DNA of 17,694 nt, from assembly GCA_020833055.1 (NCBI GenBank), contig JAJHQZ010000015.1, positions 1-17,694 of the forward strand. The letters are read 5' to 3'. Position 1 is the first letter of the stretch. Each line of letters opens with the position of its first letter. Under the pieces are notes generated by a model. It did not search any database, had not been told where the DNA came from, and worked only from the letters and a program-made list of their open reading frames with translations. Source of the stretch: Candidatus Korarchaeum sp. (GTDB taxonomy: Archaea; Korarchaeota; Korarchaeia; Korarchaeales; Korarchaeaceae). This document shows positions 1 through 7,313 of the stretch, piece by piece. The position numbers were made by a program, and so were the translations under genes.

Positions 1-758
1 CTCCTGTACTTAGCGGCTCTGTTGGCTATTAGAGATGCTACTACTCCCGCGGGGACGCCTCCATCTATGTTGACTACAGCGAGCCCCAGCGAGCAGGACT
101 GGAGCATCGACATGAGCGCGCTCAACCCCCTGCCCCCGAAACCGTAGCCACTTGAGGAGGGGACTGCTATGACAGGGATATCAACTAGCCCCGCGACTAA
201 GGACGCTAGAGCCCCTTCCCTCCCCGCTACTACTATAAGTACATCTACGTCCTCTCTTATCATCTCCTTCAGCGGTTCGAAGAGCCTGTGAAGCCCCGCT
301 ATTCCAACATCATAAGCCCTCAGGACCTCGCAGCCCATCTCCTCAGCTATAACTCTGGCTTCCTCAGCGACCCGGATGTCAGAAGTTCCAGCTGTCAGTA
401 TACCGACTTTACCCCCCGTCCTCTCCACCCTGAACCCCTCCCTCTTAAGCACTACGATCCTCGCTCTCTCGTGCACTTCCACTATAGCCCCGGGCAAACT
501 GATCTTCATGAGATCTCCGCTCGCCCTACTTATTATAGCCCTCCCCACTTCATCGAGCATCCTCTTAGCTATCCCTAGTACTTCATCTGTGCTCTTCCCC
601 TCAGCTACTATTATCTCCGGGACCCCCCTCCTGATCCCCCTCCCGAGGTCTATCCGAGCTAGGCCCTCGATCTCAGTTATCTCGAATAACTTGAGGAGCT
701 TCTCAGCCTCATCTACAGATATCTCTCCCCTAGCTAACTTCTCCAGTATCTCCCTCAA
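1..758 (-). CDS. larB: LarB, NPN cofactor biosynthesis carboxylase/hydrolase (3' end beyond window)
   Basis: LarB carboxylates the pyridinium ring of nicotinic acid adenine dinucleotide and splits the phosphoanhydride, the first step to the nickel-pincer nucleotide (NPN) cofactor. I translated this frame by hand: 252 codons from a TTG at 758-756 run open to the window edge. The C-terminal two thirds is AIR-carboxylase (PurE)-like. It shows GKVGILTAGTSD (about 117-128), VAGREGALASLVAG (177-190), IPVIAVPSSSGYG (194-206) and LQSCSLGLAVVNIDGG (219-234). Cys222 falls where Lactiplantibacillus LarB has its catalytic Cys221. The usual family length is about 250, so only a few residues are probably missing. 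The TTG start is chosen because AGGAGGG (770-764) lies 5 bases upstream. The gene diverges from larC across 40 bases. Identity is confident; the exact start is likely. Confidence 0.93.
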   Translation of the reverse strand, partial: MREILEKLARGEISVDEAEKLLKLFEITEIEGLARIDLGRGIRRGVPEIIVAEGKSTDEVLGIAKRMLDEVGRAIISRASGDLMKISLPGAIVEVHERARIVVLKREGFRVERTGGKVGILTAGTSDIRVAEEARVIAEEMGCEVLRAYDVGIAGLHRLFEPLKEMIREDVDVLIVVAGREGALASLVAGLVDIPVIAVPSSSGYGFGGRGLSALMSMLQSCSLGLAVVNIDGGVPAGVVASLIANRAAKYR

Positions 759-768
759 ACAGACCCTC

Positions 769-791
769 CTTTATATAAGCGGATTTATAAT
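769..791. promoter_or_regulatory. Divergent larB/larC promoter region with two TATA-like boxes
   Basis: TTTATATAA at 770-778 is centred 25 bases before the larC ATG, as expected for a leaderless archaeal transcript. A second box, TTTATAA at 784-790, reads TTATAAA on the minus strand. It is the only TATA-like element upstream of larB, about 29 bases before its TTG. The larC box overlaps the larB ribosome-binding site (764-770), so the two promoters cannot be separated in space. Assigned by position and composition only. Confidence 0.55.
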
Positions 792-798
792 TCTAGCG

Positions 799-1989
799 AT
801 GATACTGATAGACTGCAGCTCCGGGATATCCGGCGATATGTTCCTAGCGGCTCTATTGGATTTGGGAGCTGATGAAAAGAAGGTATTGAGAGCTATAGAT
901 GAGATAGGGGAGCTCTTGAGCAAGATAGAGGTCAGGATAGGGGAAGTAAAGAGGAGGGGGATAAGGGCCAAGAAAGTCGACTTCTACTCTGAGAGCTGGC
1001 CCTCGCTGAGCGGGGAGGATCTCATAAATTACGTAGAGAGGTGCGTTGAGAAGTTGGATATCAGCGATGAAGCGAGGGGTTACGCGATAAGGGTGGCTGA
1101 GACTCTAGTTGAAGCTGAGAGAAGGGTGCATGGGGAAGCTCACCTCCACGAGATCGGTCAGCCAGATGCTATAGCTGAGATAGTAGGAGTTTCAGTGGCT
1201 CTCGATGACCTGAAGGCATTCAATACGACTGTTTACTCCACGCCCCTCGCGGTGGGCGGGGGCTTCGTGGAGAACTCCCACGGGAGGCTTCCAGTCCCGG
1301 CTCCAGTTACGCTAGAGATACTCAAGGGCTTCCCGATCTCAGGGGGGCCAGTGAGGGAGGAGCTAGCCACACCCACGGGGGCTTCCCTACTCGTAAACAT
1401 AGTAGACTCCGTTACTGAGCTCTATCCGATGATGAGGCCATCTGGAGTCGGATACGGTGCTGGGAGCAAGGAGCTGGAGATACCAAACGTGATCAGAATC
1501 GTCTCAGGCGAGCCACTGGATGCTAGGAGGGAGGAAGTCCTCATGATAGAGACGAATGTCGACGATGTGCCCGGGGAGGTGCTGGGTTACGCTTTAGATA
1601 AGCTAATGAAGGAGGGGGCGAGGGACGCTTTCATAATCCCCATAATAGCTAAGAAGGGCAGGCCCGGTCAGGTACTGAAGGCGATAGCTGACAGGGGTAA
1701 TGCTGAGCATCTGGCTAGGGTGATGATAGAGGAGACCGGGAGCCTGGGGGTTCGCGTATATAGATGCGAGAGGATCGTCCTGAATAGGGAGGTAGTGCCC
1801 GTTAAAGTGTCCGTGGATGGTCGAGAGTTCGAGGTGAGGGTGAAGGTGGCTGGCAGCTTGAGGGCGAAGCCTGAGTACGAGGACGTTAGGGAGATAGCTG
1901 AGAGGACGGGGAAGCCCCTCAGGGTGGTGATGAAGTTAGTTGAGGACAGGTTGAGGGAATATGGGGGAGCTCGAGGATCTAATAATTGA
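799..1989 (+). CDS. larC: LarC, nickel insertase for the NPN cofactor
   Basis: LarC (COG1641) inserts nickel into the pincer dinucleotide in a CTP-dependent step, completing the NPN cofactor. The 396-residue product opens with MILIDCSSGISGDMFLAALL, the typical LarC N terminus. It continues with HLHEIG (115-120), LAVGGGFVENSHGRLPVPAP (150-169), ELATPTGASLL (188-198), ETNVDDVPGE (251-260) and AKKGRPG (284-290). The frame stays open for 141 codons upstream of 799, but that part is antisense to larB and does not resemble LarC. ATG 799 fits both the family N terminus and the TATA box 25 bases upstream. The gene is one uninterrupted frame, whereas Lactiplantibacillus makes LarC from larC1/larC2 by programmed frameshifting. 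Its last 29 bases overlap larE, so the two are probably translationally coupled. Confidence 0.95.
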   Translation: MILIDCSSGISGDMFLAALLDLGADEKKVLRAIDEIGELLSKIEVRIGEVKRRGIRAKKVDFYSESWPSLSGEDLINYVERCVEKLDISDEARGYAIRVAETLVEAERRVHGEAHLHEIGQPDAIAEIVGVSVALDDLKAFNTTVYSTPLAVGGGFVENSHGRLPVPAPVTLEILKGFPISGGPVREELATPTGASLLVNIVDSVTELYPMMRPSGVGYGAGSKELEIPNVIRIVSGEPLDARREEVLMIETNVDDVPGEVLGYALDKLMKEGARDAFIIPIIAKKGRPGQVLKAIADRGNAEHLARVMIEETGSLGVRVYRCERIVLNREVVPVKVSVDGREFEVRVKVAGSLRAKPEYEDVREIAERTGKPLRVVMKLVEDRLREYGGARGSNN

Positions 1990-2743
1990 GAGGGGGAAGG
2001 ATGGAGTAATAATAGCCCTCTCAGGGGGACTTGATAGCTCGACTCTAGCTGCCTTATGCAAGAAACTGCTCGGAGACAAGGCGATAGCTGTGACAGTGGC
2101 TTCCGAGCTCCAGCCCGAGGAGGAGATAGAGGGAGCTAGGAGAGTTGCCGAGGAGATAGGGATAAGGCACATCCTGATAGAGATGAGCTTGCTGAAGGAG
2201 GAAGTTGCTAGGAACGGTCCGGATAGATGTTATCACTGCAAGAAGGCTATGTTCAGGAGGATTAGAGAGCTGGCGGAGGAGCTGGGGGTTAGGGAGATAT
2301 TCGATGGGACTAACGCATCAGACAGCTGGAGGCCCGGGATCGGGGCCCTGAGGGAGTTAGGGATAAGAAGCCCCTGGGCTGAATTAGGCTTCAGGAAGGA
2401 GGAGATAAGAGAGATATCTAGAAATCTAGGATTATCGGTCAGTGAGAAGGCTCCACAATCCTGCTTAGCCACTAGGATACCTTTCGGGGAGAGGATAACT
2501 CAAGAGAGGCTCATGAGGATATGGAGGGCTGAGAAGTTGATCAGGGAGCTGACTGGAGTGAAGATCCTCAGGGTGAGGGATCACGGGAGCATAGCTAGGA
2601 TAGAGGTCGGTAGGGATGAGCTGGCCTCCCTCCTAGATCCTCCCAAAATAGATGCGATAGTTAGGGGATTGAAGGGGCTGGGATTCAGGTACGTGACGCT
2701 GGATCTTGAGGGGTATAGGCCAGCGGATCCCCCTCCCCCATAA
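1961..2743 (+). CDS. larE: LarE, ATP-dependent sulfur transferase of NPN synthesis (three-cysteine type)
   Basis: LarE (COG1606) adenylates the dicarboxylated pyridinium mononucleotide and replaces its carboxylate oxygens with sulfur. The 260-residue protein has the PP-loop ATPase motif SGGLDSS at 21-27, then DRCYHCKKAMF (88-98), IFDGTNASD (113-121), PWAELGFRKEEIR (138-150) and the family signature SCLATRIPFG (167-176). Cys168 corresponds to the sacrificial Cys176 of Lactiplantibacillus LarE. Cys90 and Cys93 add a CxxC that the sacrificial type lacks. Three such cysteines are characteristic of LarE proteins that hold a [4Fe-4S] cluster and relay sulfide catalytically. The start lies inside the end of larC. 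The C terminus ends in a run of prolines at 257-260. Identity is certain; the iron-sulfur mechanism is inferred. Confidence 0.95.
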   Translation: MGELEDLIIERGKDGVIIALSGGLDSSTLAALCKKLLGDKAIAVTVASELQPEEEIEGARRVAEEIGIRHILIEMSLLKEEVARNGPDRCYHCKKAMFRRIRELAEELGVREIFDGTNASDSWRPGIGALRELGIRSPWAELGFRKEEIREISRNLGLSVSEKAPQSCLATRIPFGERITQERLMRIWRAEKLIRELTGVKILRVRDHGSIARIEVGRDELASLLDPPKIDAIVRGLKGLGFRYVTLDLEGYRPADPPPP

Positions 2744-2810: not shown

Positions 2811-3689
2811 ATGAAGTGGCACTACATCCTGATCTTAGCCCTGCTGCTCATAGCAGCTTACTTCATCATCCCGAGGGAGGGGAGGAGGGAAGTAGTAGTC
2901 GGGACGATACAGGGAGGGATAAGCACTCTCGATATAATGGAAGCTGACTGGATGAAGGTAGTCAGGTTCGATAAGCCCCTAGATCTATCTCAAGCCCTCT
3001 CCAGGGGAGAGGTGGATGTAGCTGTGATAACAGCTGAGATGTACGCTAAGTTCGCTGAGAGGGATAAGGATCTCAAGATAATAGCTGCCGATATGCTCCA
3101 GAACCAAGCTATAATAGGTATTGAAGATATCAGGGAGCTGAAGGGGAAGAGAGTGGGGGCCACGACAGCTAGCGGGACTTACGCTATGTTCCTAGCTTAT
3201 CTGAACCTCTCTGGATTGAGCCAGAAGGATATAATAATAGTTGATGCCCCTCCCCTCCAATTGGTTCAAGCTCTGGAGAGAAAAGACGTAGACGCTATCG
3301 TATGTTGGGAGCCGATAGCCTCCAAGCTCATAGCTAAGGGCTATAAGCACGTGGACTTCATAAAATTAGCTGAGAGGTACTTGGGGAGGAAGCCTGTTAT
3401 GCTGGTCTGGGTAGCTAAAGCGAGCTTCCTGGAGAGGCCGGAAGCCAAGGAGTTCGTAGAGATGAGGGAGAGAGCTGCATCGGAATGGGGGAAGAGGGCT
3501 CCTGAGGCCCTCAAGAAGTTGTACAATATGAGCGATGAGGAAATTAGTGTCCTGATGAGGAGGGTCGAGATAGTGAGGGGCCTCCCGAAGGGGGATATAA
3601 TAGCGGCTTGGGAGCTGGCTTCAGCGGGCGGTTACATAAGCGAGGGATTGATAGAGGAGCTCAAGGGGAGGGCCTTCTGGGAGGGCTGA
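2811..3689 (+). CDS. ABC importer substrate-binding protein, NMT1/SsuA type, membrane anchored
   Basis: This is the extracytoplasmic binding protein of an SsuABC/TauABC-like ABC importer. The 292-residue product starts with a short basic end and one hydrophobic segment (about 5-20) with no lipobox cysteine, so it is probably held by an uncleaved signal anchor. The periplasmic-binding fold follows. Family marks are LSQALSRGEVDVAVITAEMY (48-67), the domain-crossing IRELKGKRVGATTASGTYA, and LVQALERKDVDAIVCWEPIA, which matches the usual QALxxGxVDAixxWEP pattern of NMT1/SsuA proteins. The substrate cannot be read from sequence; relatives bind sulfonates, thiamine precursors and aromatic acids. It is followed after 2 bases by its permease. 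It resembles the MqnA/MqnD fold, but the membrane anchor and the ABC neighbours make transport the better call. Confidence 0.85.
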   Translation: MKWHYILILALLLIAAYFIIPREGRREVVVGTIQGGISTLDIMEADWMKVVRFDKPLDLSQALSRGEVDVAVITAEMYAKFAERDKDLKIIAADMLQNQAIIGIEDIRELKGKRVGATTASGTYAMFLAYLNLSGLSQKDIIIVDAPPLQLVQALERKDVDAIVCWEPIASKLIAKGYKHVDFIKLAERYLGRKPVMLVWVAKASFLERPEAKEFVEMRERAASEWGKRAPEALKKLYNMSDEEISVLMRRVEIVRGLPKGDIIAAWELASAGGYISEGLIEELKGRAFWEG

Positions 3690-3691
3690 AG

Positions 3692-4420
3692 TTGATCAAG
3701 ATAGGGGCCCTCTCATCCTTCATCTTACTCTTATTGCTTTGGGAAGCTATATCCCTTCCCGGACTCCTCCCATCCCCTCTATCCACTTTAAGATATATAG
3801 CGAGCTTAGACCCTGATTTGATAGCCCTTCACACGGTGATAACTCTCTACAATAGTTTCGCTGGCTTCTCTCTTTCTATGCTCCTCTCTTTAGCCTTAGG
3901 ATTCCTCTCTCACAGGAATGAGTTCATCAGGGGCTTCTCGATTGGGATATGCTCGATATTCAATAGCACATCGGCCCTGATATGGTCCCTAGTCTTAGTA
4001 TCTACTATAGGTATACTCAGCCCCCTCCCCCCTATACTAGTGGCCTCAGCGGTCTCCCTCCCGCAGCTACTCTCAGCAACAATAGCTGCCCTGGATTCAG
4101 TCGATAAGAACTTGATAGAGGCCGTGAGATCCCTAGGAGGGAGCTCAGCTAACGAGTACTTAGATGTGATAATACCGGGATCCCTCCCGATGATAATAGC
4201 TGCCTCCAGGGTGGCCCTCGGCCTCTCCCTCAGGATAAGCGTAGTGGCTGAGGCCTTCGGCTCCAGCGGTGGGATAGGCTATATGATAATGAGATCCTAC
4301 AACTTAGCCGATGCCCCCGGAGTCCTCGCGTGGTCCCTCATATTGATAGCATTGGTGCTCGCTCTGGACAGGCTCTTGCTCATGCCAGTTGAGGAGAGGT
4401 CGAGCTCATGGCTGAAGTGA
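3692..4420 (+). CDS. ABC importer permease, SsuC/TauC (BPD_transp_1) type
   Basis: This is the membrane subunit of the importer encoded with the binding protein before it and the ATPase after it. It has 242 residues and about six hydrophobic segments. The EAA loop, which contacts the ATPase, reads EAVRSLGGSSANEYLDVIIP, followed by GSLPMIIAASRVALG, typical of SsuC/TauC permeases. I chose the TTG at 3692 because GGAGGG (3680-3685) sits 6 bases upstream and because the hydrophobic N terminus LIKIGALSSFILLLLLWEA then follows directly. An ATG at 3608 is in frame but lies deep inside the preceding gene and would add a non-hydrophobic, unlikely leader. The end overlaps the ATPase gene by 13 bases. 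Confidence 0.88.
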   Translation: MIKIGALSSFILLLLLWEAISLPGLLPSPLSTLRYIASLDPDLIALHTVITLYNSFAGFSLSMLLSLALGFLSHRNEFIRGFSIGICSIFNSTSALIWSLVLVSTIGILSPLPPILVASAVSLPQLLSATIAALDSVDKNLIEAVRSLGGSSANEYLDVIIPGSLPMIIAASRVALGLSLRISVVAEAFGSSGGIGYMIMRSYNLADAPGVLAWSLILIALVLALDRLLLMPVEERSSSWLK

Positions 4421-5124
4421 TCTTGGAGGCTCTTGGGATAAGGAAGAGCTTCAGCGAACTAGTGCTAGATGGTATAAGCTTGAGGCTGGAGAGAGGGGAG
4501 ATACTGGGGATAGTGGGCCCGAACTCATGCGGTAAAACTACCCTATTGAGGATATTGGCCGGATTGGAGGGCTCCTATGAGGGGGAAGTCAGGAGGAATG
4601 GTAGCTTGAGCATAGTGTTCCAAGAGGACAGGTTGCTGCCCTGGAAGACTCTCATGGAGAATATATGCCTCGGTCTGAAGTACGCTGGGAGGAGGGATAT
4701 TGAGAGAGCGTTGAATTACGCTAGGAGGCTTGGGATAAGTGAGGAGGATCTCAGGAGCTTCCCTAGGAGGGTTAGCGGTGGGACTAGGAGGAAAGCCGCT
4801 ATAGTTAGAGCCCTCGCCCTGGAGCCGGAGATAATACTGATGGACGAGCCATTCACAGGCCTAGATTTCAGCACTATAGTGACTCTAAGGTCCTCCCTAG
4901 CGGATCTCCTGAGGGAGAGGGGGATTTCAGCTATAATAGTGTCGCATCAACTCGAGGACCTGCTAACTGTAGTAGATAGATGCTTAGTAATGACGCCGAA
5001 GCCCTCTAAGATAGGGGCCGAGCTTAATATGAGGGGGATGGGGTTGGAGGAGAGGGTAAACGCGCTCAAGGATGTTTTGATGAGGATGGTGAGCGATCAT
5101 GGGCCTCAGGGATTTCCTGAATAA
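4408..5124 (+). CDS. ABC importer ATP-binding protein, SsuB/TauB type
   Basis: This is the ATPase subunit that powers the importer. The 238-residue protein has Walker A GPNSCGKT (37-44), a Q-loop at Q72 (VFQEDRLLPW, typical of the SsuB/TauB class), signature VSGGT (122-126), Walker B IILMDE (142-147) and the switch histidine at 180 (IVSH). The signature continues SGGTRRK, whereas SGGQRQR or SGGMRQR is usual; the two glycines are kept, so it should be active. The ribosome-binding site GAGGAGAGGT (4391-4400) lies inside the permease gene. The 3' end overlaps ubiD by 26 bases, which physically ties the transporter to the decarboxylase. Confidence 0.92.
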   Translation: MAEVILEALGIRKSFSELVLDGISLRLERGEILGIVGPNSCGKTTLLRILAGLEGSYEGEVRRNGSLSIVFQEDRLLPWKTLMENICLGLKYAGRRDIERALNYARRLGISEEDLRSFPRRVSGGTRRKAAIVRALALEPEIILMDEPFTGLDFSTIVTLRSSLADLLRERGISAIIVSHQLEDLLTVVDRCLVMTPKPSKIGAELNMRGMGLEERVNALKDVLMRMVSDHGPQGFPE

Positions 5125-6511
5125 ACTGGAGGAAATTGGAGAGCTCAGGAGAGTGAAGGCTAGGGTTAGCGTAGATCTGGAGATAGCTGAGATACTGAGG
5201 AGGGTGGCTAGAGGAGGGCCCGCTTTACTATTCGAGAACATAGAGGGCTTCGATGGATGGAGGCTAGTGGGCAACATATTCTCGAAGGCTGAGAGGGTGA
5301 AGCTAGCCCTCAACTGCGATCCGGAGGAGGCGGGGAGTAAGTTAGTGAGCATGATAAGGGCCCCTCCTCTCAGCCTCCCGGATAAAGTGAGGATGCTGAG
5401 CGATGTAATATCCCTGGGGAGGCACCTCCCGAAGCTGAGCGGTGCGGATTGGAAGAAGGGGAAGTGGGATAGAGTCGATCTCGAGAGGATACCGGCTATA
5501 AGGACATGGCCCAAGGATGCCTCGAGGTTCTTCACCTTCCCGATAGTGATAACTAAGGATCCTGAGACCGGAGTGCACCATCTAGGGGTCTACAGGATGC
5601 AGTTGATGGATAGCAAAACTACTGGGATGCACTGGCATGTGCATAAGAGAGGGGCCGCTTACATGAGGAAGTATAGAGGTAGTATGCCCGTAGCTGTCGC
5701 TGTTGGCGTCGATCCAGCTCTAGCTTTCACTGCAGTCGCTCCAGTGCCCGAAGGGATAGATAGCTACGTTTTCGCTGGCATTATAACAGGAAGATCCTTT
5801 GAAGTGAGCAGAGGGGAGCTCACGGATCTGCTCATACCCTCCGATGCTGAGTTAGTTATAGAGGGCGAAGTGCCCCTGGATGAAGTGAGGCTCGAGGGAC
5901 CCTTCGGGGATCACATGGGTTACTACACTCCACCCTCCCCCTTCCCCGTGTTCAGAGCTGGGGCTATTTACACAGTAGAGGATCCGATATTCCACGCGAC
6001 GGTAGTGGGCTACCCCTGGCTGGAGGACTCCGTCATAGGGAAGGGGATAGAGAGGCTCTTCCTCCCTCTGGCCAGGATGATAATCCCAGAGCTAGTGGAT
6101 ATGAACATACCTGAGTACGGGCTCTTCCACGGCTTAGCTATAATATCGATAAGGAAGCGGTACCCAGGTCAAGCGAGGAGCGTAGCCATGGGGCTCCTCG
6201 GGATAGGCCAGTTCTCCCTCACTAAGATAGTAGTGGTCGTCGATGAGGACGTGAACGTCCACGATATCAATGAGGTGATATACGCTATAGCTACTACAGT
6301 GGACCCGAGGAGGGATGTTCAGATAATAGAGAACGCTGTGACAGATGAGCTAGATCACGCTAGCTCAACTCCGAGGCTGGGGAGCAAGATGATAATAGAC
6401 GCCACTAGGAAGCTCAGGGAGGAGCTGGGCAGGGAGTGGCCCGAGAGGGTGGAGCCGGATCCCGAAGTCGCTAAGAGAGTGGATGAGAGGTGGAGGGAGT
6501 TTGGGATATAG
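5099..6511 (+). CDS. ubiD: UbiD-family prenylated-FMN-dependent decarboxylase
   Basis: UbiD enzymes reversibly decarboxylate aromatic or alpha,beta-unsaturated acids using prenylated FMN, which a UbiX partner supplies (none is in this window). The 470-residue length is typical. Visible marks are TGVHHLGVYRMQ (157-168) with the conserved active-site arginine R166, HWHVHKRGA (178-186), and LEGPFGDHMGYY (265-276) with the catalytic acid pair. In this pair the second acid is Asp271 where characterised Fdc1 has Glu. GYPWLEDSVIGK (304-315) follows. The start is inside the ATPase gene, with GGTGA (5088-5092) 6 bases upstream. The coding region overlaps ubiA. Together with a UbiA-type prenyltransferase this suggests quinone-like synthesis, as in MqnL/MqnP or UbiD/UbiA. 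Family call is sure; the substrate is unknown. Confidence 0.93.
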   Translation: MGLRDFLNKLEEIGELRRVKARVSVDLEIAEILRRVARGGPALLFENIEGFDGWRLVGNIFSKAERVKLALNCDPEEAGSKLVSMIRAPPLSLPDKVRMLSDVISLGRHLPKLSGADWKKGKWDRVDLERIPAIRTWPKDASRFFTFPIVITKDPETGVHHLGVYRMQLMDSKTTGMHWHVHKRGAAYMRKYRGSMPVAVAVGVDPALAFTAVAPVPEGIDSYVFAGIITGRSFEVSRGELTDLLIPSDAELVIEGEVPLDEVRLEGPFGDHMGYYTPPSPFPVFRAGAIYTVEDPIFHATVVGYPWLEDSVIGKGIERLFLPLARMIIPELVDMNIPEYGLFHGLAIISIRKRYPGQARSVAMGLLGIGQFSLTKIVVVVDEDVNVHDINEVIYAIATTVDPRRDVQIIENAVTDELDHASSTPRLGSKMIIDATRKLREELGREWPERVEPDPEVAKRVDERWREFGI

Positions 6512-7313
6512 GACTTACTTGGAGATGCTCAGGTTACCTCACACACTCTTCAGCCTCCCCTTCGCTTATGTAGGAGCCTTAGCTGCTGGCCTCAGGGATC
6601 CCCTAGACGCTCTCATGGTGGGAGTAGCCCTGTTCTCAGCTAGATCCGTGGCTATACTCTCAAATGATCTAGTGGACAGGGAGATAGATGCGTTAAATCC
6701 TAGGACAGCTAGCAGACCCTTAGTGACTGGGGAAGCTGATCCATCAAAGGTGTCCATGTTAATAGCTTTATTCTCAGTTATATTCGTGCTATCAGCCCTC
6801 TACTTCAACTTCCTCTGCTTCCTCCTCTCCTTCCCCATACTCTTAGCTGAGCTCTCATATCCCTTCGCGAAGAGGATACACTGCTTCCCCCACTTCCACT
6901 TAGGAGCTGTATTAGGCGCCTCTCCCCTTGCAGGATTCATAGCTATCTCGGACAGTCTCAAGGGCCTACCCTGGAGCTACTCCATATCCCTAGCCCTATG
7001 GGTGGCCGGCTTCGATATAATATACTCGATGCAAGATATTGATTTCGACAGGAAGTTCGGGATAAAATCCATTCCTTCATGCTTCGGGGAATCCTTCGCG
7101 CTTAACTCAGCCTCGGCATGCCATCTCCTCTCCTTCCTATCTTTGCTCCCCTCCGTGAGGGGTCCCTACTCCCTAGCCTCCCTCATGGCATTCGGTACTA
7201 TCCTCCTGATCGAGAACGTTGAGGCCAGGAGGGGGAGGTATAAGGAGGCCTTCGACCTTAACATAATATCAGGTCTCATCCTGGGGCTCGGATTCATGAT
7301 AGACCTCATCTAA
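6501..7313 (+). CDS. UbiA-family polyprenyltransferase
   Basis: This is a membrane enzyme that transfers a polyprenyl chain onto an aromatic acceptor. The 270-residue product has about eight membrane segments. Both aspartate motifs that bind the Mg-prenyl diphosphate are intact: NDLVDREID (55-63) and QDIDFDRKFG (178-187). The N terminus YLEMLRLPHTLFSLPFA and IKSIPSCFG after the second motif resemble the 4-hydroxybenzoate-polyprenyltransferase-like 'UbiA_other' group found with UbiD in menaquinone (futalosine) pathways. I chose TTG 6501 because GGAGGG (6492-6497) lies just before it; an ATG at 6483 would add six residues but has no clear ribosome-binding site. It overlaps ubiD by 11 bases or more. 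Its last 45 bases overlap the convergent phosphoesterase gene. Digeranylgeranylglyceryl phosphate synthase is a less likely alternative. Confidence 0.87.
   Translation: MGYRTYLEMLRLPHTLFSLPFAYVGALAAGLRDPLDALMVGVALFSARSVAILSNDLVDREIDALNPRTASRPLVTGEADPSKVSMLIALFSVIFVLSALYFNFLCFLLSFPILLAELSYPFAKRIHCFPHFHLGAVLGASPLAGFIAISDSLKGLPWSYSISLALWVAGFDIIYSMQDIDFDRKFGIKSIPSCFGESFALNSASACHLLSFLSLLPSVRGPYSLASLMAFGTILLIENVEARRGRYKEAFDLNIISGLILGLGFMIDLI

Follow-up and report, generated by a model that had tools for sequence, protein, structure and literature searches.

A proposed quinone-precursor salvage operon joining an ABC importer to UbiD and UbiA in Korarchaeia and other lineages

Organization of the locus

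The sequence analysed here (hereafter, the window) is a 17,694 bp stretch from Candidatus Korarchaeum sp. that corresponds to the whole of contig C15 of a 1.39 Mb host genome estimated to be 99.5% complete. Five genes on the forward strand of the window encode an ATP-binding cassette (ABC) importer, a UbiD-family decarboxylase and a UbiA-family prenyltransferase, a combination for which we propose a role in the salvage of a respiratory quinone precursor. The first gene (2811..3689) encodes a membrane-anchored substrate-binding protein (SBP) of the NMT1/SsuA/TauA superfamily (292 amino acids; PF09084, 43.5 bits), assigned from its profile match, its AlphaFold model and its conserved motifs. It is followed by the permease gene (3692..4420; PF00528, 63.5 bits) and the ATPase gene (4408..5124; PF00005, 95.1 bits), the product of which contains the Walker A (GPNSCGKT), SGG and Walker B (IILMDE) motifs. 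The trio thus comprises all the components of an ABC importer, namely, an SBP, a BPD_transp_1 permease and an ATPase with Walker and signature motifs. The UbiD-family decarboxylase (5099..6511) is closest to MqnL among the named models, albeit below its cut-off, and the operon ends with an MqnP-like aromatic prenyltransferase of the UbiA family (6483..7313; PF01040, 156 bits).

The first-pass annotation of this region described five tightly spaced, co-directional genes at 2811–7313, and the coordinates, the gene order, the 2-base gap and the overlaps all held upon re-examination of the sequence, as did the 26-base overlap between the ATPase and ubiD genes. The open reading frame (ORF) of the permease is open from a TTG codon at 3608, but its likely start, placed by the SBP stop codon and an upstream site, is the in-frame TTG at 3692, 2 bases past that stop. 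The overlap between ubiD and ubiA is also genuine, amounting to 29 bases if translation of UbiA starts at the ATG at 6483 or 11 bases from the alternative TTG at 6501, which is preceded by a GGTGGAGG-like site. As had been pointed out, the window contains neither ubiX nor any further quinone gene.

Conservation of the linkage across lineages

This variety of UbiD is present in 15 of the 25 genomes of the order, 14 of which carry the ABC trio next to UbiD-UbiA; in the fifteenth, Candidatus Methanodesulfokora washburnensis, the SBP and permease genes are on a separate contig from UbiD. The orientation of the trio relative to the UbiD-UbiA pair takes four forms: it is located upstream on the same strand in the window and in loci L034–L036, divergently in L037–L043, convergently in L044 and L047, and in L045 again on the same strand but downstream. 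Because the genes remain neighbours through such rearrangement, their shared function appears well evidenced.

A scan with a UbiD alignment yielded 80 named loci, in 30 of which UbiD, and usually UbiA too, has the trio as its neighbour, complete or as far as the contig extends. These 30 loci come from Korarchaeia, Geothermarchaeum, Acidilobaceae/Desulfurococcales, Pyrodictiaceae, five Thermococcus metagenome-assembled genomes (MAGs) and four WOR-3 bacteria, so that the gene order is not confined to the genome in which it was first noticed. Some of the loci include additional quinone-related genes. In WOR-3, UbiX (TIGR00421, 249 bits) is encoded between the ATPase and UbiD, and in Thermococcus, the ATPase gene is followed by one for a MenG/UbiE methylase (TIGR01934, 210 bits, over the cut-off); strong MenG/UbiE-type methylases are found in both groups. 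The near-complete retention of the linkage in the order despite rearrangement, along with its recurrence in other phyla, takes it far beyond chance.

The wider neighbourhoods of these loci differ. LarC and LarE genes, involved in the nickel-pincer cofactor, lie directly upstream of the operon in the window (376–2743), an association that, among the relatives compared, is shared only by the closest one (L034). In Thermococcus MAGs (L118, 5701–9988; L101), the quinone operon is preceded by a second ABC importer of the heme/siderophore kind (Peripla_BP_2/FecCD) and a flavodoxin, which suggests that quinone is salvaged together with heme or iron. Divergently from UbiD, two Acidilobaceae genomes and one Thermoproteaceae genome carry another NMT1-type ABC set (L069, 7140–9486; L070; L091, 7438–9933), possibly representing a second, separately recruited importer.

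Quinone genes missing from the host and distribution of mqn genes

The host genome encodes neither a complete futalosine pathway (mqnA, mqnC, mqnD) nor the classical Men pathway, of which MenD was taken as the marker. In a profile search of the host, the sole match to PF02621 (MqnA/MqnD) was the SBP of the operon itself, below the cut-off at 23.9 bits, and a genome search found no MqnC. No MenD was detected over the cut-off in 33 genomes, the best host match scoring 25.4 bits against the required 244.2. A complete separate quinone pathway in the host, which the first-pass annotation had named as a point against its proposal, was thus not found. These observations agree with those of Zhi et al. 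(2014; PMC3914697), who listed none of MenF, MenB, MqnA, MqnC and MqnD for the one Korarchaeota genome then available and who included Korarchaeota among the groups without a known quinone; menaquinone-dependent complexes have been reported for some Korarchaeia (PMC10667645).

The window carries the only quinone-type UbiD-UbiA pair found in the host, since the other copies of both families belong to other types. The second UbiD (C1:46807-48003) is a distant paralogue (133 bits on TIGR03701); it falls with its relatives into a far group, and the idea that the window UbiD serves the archaeal mevalonate pathway as anhydromevalonate phosphate decarboxylase was accordingly rejected. The other two UbiA proteins are a heme o synthase, over the model cut-off, and a protein of the archaeal lipid prenyltransferase type, so that neither heme o synthase nor digeranylgeranylglyceryl phosphate synthase needs to be sought in the window UbiA, and both assignments were rejected. 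The heme o synthase gene (L049, 1426–2319, on host contig C7; 258.6 bits, cut-off 210.3) hints at a respiratory oxidase; visual inspection of the adjacent ORFs revealed no oxidase genes.

To put the host in context, we compared 51 genomes, 30 with the importer (29 identified by an SBP profile plus G041, in which the contig starts inside the permease gene) and 21 without it. Full-scoring MqnA/D and MqnC were found in only one of the 30 importer genomes (G048), compared to MqnA/D in 19 of the 21 genomes without the importer (Fisher p 8e-11, counted by genome). The SBP profile was missing from all 20 genomes picked for having no trio beside UbiD. PF02621 was matched in five further importer genomes, weakly and by the SBP itself; one of these matches, in G026 (29.9 bits), narrowly exceeds the Pfam cut-off. 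The ATPase gene of the G048 importer (L132, 8816–9566) carries a one-base frameshift at the SGG motif, possibly an assembly error; in the near relative of G048, L102, the ATPase is intact and MqnA/D is lacking. Given that the mqn cluster of G048 itself includes no UbiD or UbiA, the importer-linked pair may serve the mqn pathway in this organism.

Two genomes contain neither the importer nor MqnA/D. One of these, G056, carries the different NMT1-type set at L069 mentioned above, perhaps a replacement of the importer, and the other is a Micrarchaeota genome with a UbiD grouping with those of Sulfolobales. Four Sulfolobales genomes encode one PF02621 protein each with no MqnC found, so the presence of MqnA/D should not be equated with a complete futalosine pathway. 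In these four (G055, G057, G058 and G068; loci L067, L071, L073 and L110), the genes for the single PF02621 protein and the non-canonical UbiD are candidates for the caldariellaquinone route.

Affinities of the UbiD, UbiA and importer proteins

The window UbiD matches all three domains of the superfamily over the respective cut-offs (PF20695, PF01977 and PF20696, with 230.6 bits for the core domain) and contains the motif EGPFGDHMGYY. Among the more specific models, it scores best with TIGR03701 (MqnL; 467.6 bits), followed by the general UbiD model (432.8 bits) and the E. coli type (345.3 bits). Other importer-linked UbiDs score 415–487 bits with TIGR03701, and three UbiDs from mqn-bearing genomes score 542–667 bits. 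Of the solved structures, E. coli UbiD aligns to the window protein over the full length with 438 bits, compared to at most 220 bits for the others. The UbiD tree contains a canonical clade of 34 sequences (support 100/100), mostly from genomes with mqn genes; the importer-linked UbiDs share a different part of the tree with the UbiDs of Sulfolobales, two Acidilobaceae and one Thermoproteaceae. The window UbiA belongs to the UbiA-like polyprenyltransferases (TIGR01475, 224.6 bits, cut-off 180.8), with the aspartate motifs NDLVDREID and DIDFD, and its solved relative is 4OD4/4OD5 (181.8 bits).

In the SBP, the motifs TLD, QNQA, SGTY and WEP are strongly conserved across a 30-sequence alignment; the AlphaFold model built from that alignment (mean pLDDT, the per-residue confidence score, 94.6) includes an N-terminal helix at residues 3–19. 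The nearest sequence models are SsuA (71.6 bits, cut-off 163.5) and a taurine binder (56.9 bits, cut-off 304.25), and a standard sulfonate importer was rejected on account of the distance from both cut-offs. In searches with the SBP model, Foldseek ranked TauA first by E-value, and VIA-align ranked PqqT first (Z 25.2, 2.7 Å over 261 residues), followed by SsuA (Z 24.4), with the fold also held in common with MqnD (Z 20.2) and MqnA bound to 3-hydroxybenzoate (Z 19.1). Because the top VIA-align matches are tied, this ranking does not fix the ligand: the modelled fold is suited to a range of ligands that includes carboxylated aromatics and quinones, and it says nothing of actual binding.

A proposed model of quinone-precursor salvage

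Gene content, conserved linkage, the absence of the upstream genes and the intact motifs were all computed directly; from these, we infer the direction of transport, the ligand, the order of the UbiA and UbiD steps and the final product. The five genes probably act together in salvaging a respiratory quinone, whose aromatic head-group acid would be imported and then finished, the most likely ligand being 1,4-dihydroxy-6-naphthoate. The SBP, proposed here to bind the quinone head-group acid, would catch a soluble carboxylated aromatic precursor given off by neighbouring organisms, and the permease and ATPase would carry it inward in an ATP-driven manner. UbiA would then join a polyprenyl chain to the precursor and UbiD would take off the carboxyl group to yield a demethylquinone, which a MenG-type methylase encoded elsewhere could finish. 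The favoured precursor is made by MqnD and is the futalosine route's last soluble intermediate on the way to menaquinone. The role of quinone-precursor importer is proposed from gene context and distribution.

The first-pass annotation envisaged import, decarboxylation and prenylation of an aromatic carboxylate. The conserved linkage, the added UbiX and MenG, and the near-exclusion of mqnA/C/D lend good support to the core of that idea, namely, salvage by import of the acid and its completion to a quinone. The details call for revision: the enzymes are nearest to MqnP and MqnL of the futalosine route rather than to those of ubiquinone synthesis, and prenylation may come first, the order of the two steps having been left open by Ravcheev and Thiele (2016; PMC4746308). 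A naphthoquinone product is favoured by the MenG partners, by the mqn cluster of G048 that lacks its own UbiD and UbiA, and by the methylmenaquinone reported for Pyrolobus fumarii, a member of Pyrodictiaceae (PMC8105010).

There is precedent for salvage operons in which an importer is joined to the final steps of cofactor synthesis. The closest enzymatic counterpart of the present one is the late futalosine pathway (MqnP, MqnL, the UbiX-like MqnM and MenG; Ravcheev and Thiele, 2016, PMC4746308), which employs the same enzyme families, here gathered in one operon and joined by UbiX in WOR-3 and MenG in Thermococcus, but the ABC importer takes the place of the upstream mqnA/C/D, and the UbiD and UbiA proteins are divergent from canonical MqnL and MqnP. 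PqqT, the best structural match of the SBP and a member of the same superfamily, recaptures a carboxylated aromatic quinone, pyrroloquinoline quinone (PQQ), and is cited in PMC12124388 as binding it with a Kd of 50 nM; however, the two proteins are only 16% identical, and PQQ is a finished soluble cofactor, whereas the ligand proposed here is a precursor that the operon's own enzymes would finish. The SsuABC and TauABC sulfonate importers share the SBP, permease and ATPase superfamilies and the three-gene make-up, but the present SBP falls below the SsuA and TauA cut-offs and the linked genes encode quinone enzymes rather than sulfonate oxygenases. MqnA and MqnD (PF02621) have the same fold as the SBP, to which they match weakly in sequence, but are enzymes, unlike the SBP with its N-terminal membrane anchor and its place in an ABC operon. 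Finally, the use of exogenous menaquinone precursors has been proposed for gut bacteria with partial pathways (PMC4746308); a partial pathway and an imported soluble precursor are common to both cases, but that proposal concerned the Men branch, whereas the candidate importer described here is linked to finishing enzymes of the Mqn type. In the proposal of Ravcheev and Thiele (PMC4746308), importers for such precursors have to exist, though they 'remain to be annotated'. We found no published quinone-precursor importer in the open-access literature, nor a pathway encoded in this way, in line with the initial impression of novelty, and a salvage operon for a quinone head group thus appears to be new.

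Alternative explanations

Several observations weigh against the salvage of a menaquinone precursor as formulated above. The window UbiD does not reach the MqnL cut-off of 495.9 bits, all importer-linked UbiDs fall outside the canonical MqnL clade, and the Sulfolobales UbiDs share their part of the tree, yet the quinones of Sulfolobales are not naphthoquinones. Similarly, the window UbiA scores 163.7–177.9 bits with the MqnP models NF041584, NF041585 and NF041586, for which the cut-offs are 375–430, although these models are narrow, given that even a protein from mqn-positive Desulforamulus scores 351.8 bits. The ligand may therefore differ from that proposed: the tree weakens the identity of the importer-linked UbiD as MqnL, and another aromatic acid is possible. 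The SBP fold, moreover, is common to binders of sulfonate, nitrate, bicarbonate and thiamine precursors. A ubiX homologue had been expected elsewhere in the host, but the genome search yielded no PF02441 (UbiX/Dfp-type) protein, and UbiD needs prenylated flavin mononucleotide (FMN); such a protein is missing from 22 of the 25 genomes of the order, though all carry UbiD-family enzymes with this requirement. The MenG candidate of the host falls below its family cut-off (109.1 versus 158.35 bits). The comparative evidence is also thinner than the genome counts suggest: the importer changes state only four times on the UbiD tree, with two well-supported independent pairs, and in 200 pairings on this tree, 1.7 agreed on average and zero disagreed, too few for significance. 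Furthermore, most of the genomes compared are incomplete MAGs.

One rival reading is the same kind of salvage acting on another precursor, a hydroxybenzoate- or benzothiophene-type carboxylate, giving rise to a different quinone or a prenylated phenol instead of menaquinone. We regard this as rather unlikely, even though the missed MqnL and MqnP cut-offs, the placement of UbiD in the part of the tree with the Sulfolobales UbiDs and the annotation of 4OD4/4OD5, the nearest solved UbiA, as a 4-hydroxybenzoate prenyltransferase all point that way. The strong methylases of Thermococcus, where the gene is in the operon itself, and of WOR-3 speak for menaquinone, MenG/UbiE-type methylases being able to work on menaquinone and ubiquinone precursors alike; the co-occurrence in G048 of an mqn cluster with UbiD and UbiA of this type and the Pyrodictiaceae methylmenaquinone report (PMC8105010) point in the same direction. 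It is considerably less probable that the importer takes up an unrelated nutrient, such as a sulfonate, nitrate or a thiamine precursor, and that its proximity to UbiD-UbiA is incidental or reflects mere co-regulation. The affinity of the SBP to SsuA and taurine binders in sequence and to TauA in the Foldseek ranking would fit such a role, but the scores are far from the respective cut-offs, the linkage outlasts rearrangement and is found again in other phyla, where UbiX and MenG join it, and the SBP profile is absent from every genome picked for having no trio beside UbiD. Least plausible of all, and in our view very improbable, is a function of UbiD and UbiA in breaking down or detoxifying the aromatic acids taken up, as opposed to quinone synthesis: many degradative decarboxylases do belong to the UbiD family, but degradation needs neither a prenyltransferase nor MenG, and the window protein resembles the quinone branch, represented by E. 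coli UbiD, over its full length.

Biological implications

With menaquinone-precursor salvage retained as the preferred reading, the chances appear about evenly balanced that the module is a mobile cassette for quinone cross-feeding in hot environments, in which a dedicated importer of a soluble futalosine intermediate and the finishing enzymes serve Korarchaeia, Thermococcus lineages, WOR-3 and Desulfurococcales that lack head-group synthesis. How organisms with partial pathways obtain soluble precursors was an open question (PMC4746308), and the module names a candidate importer and its gene neighbourhood in several lineages. If the proposal is correct, the operon would encode the first known quinone-precursor importer, and some Thermococcus would become quinone users. 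From the module one can further predict the organisms that rely on quinone donors, as well as the presence of quinones in groups without any shown so far, such as Korarchaeota, and would provide a marker for the exchange of respiratory cofactors in hot spring and vent communities.

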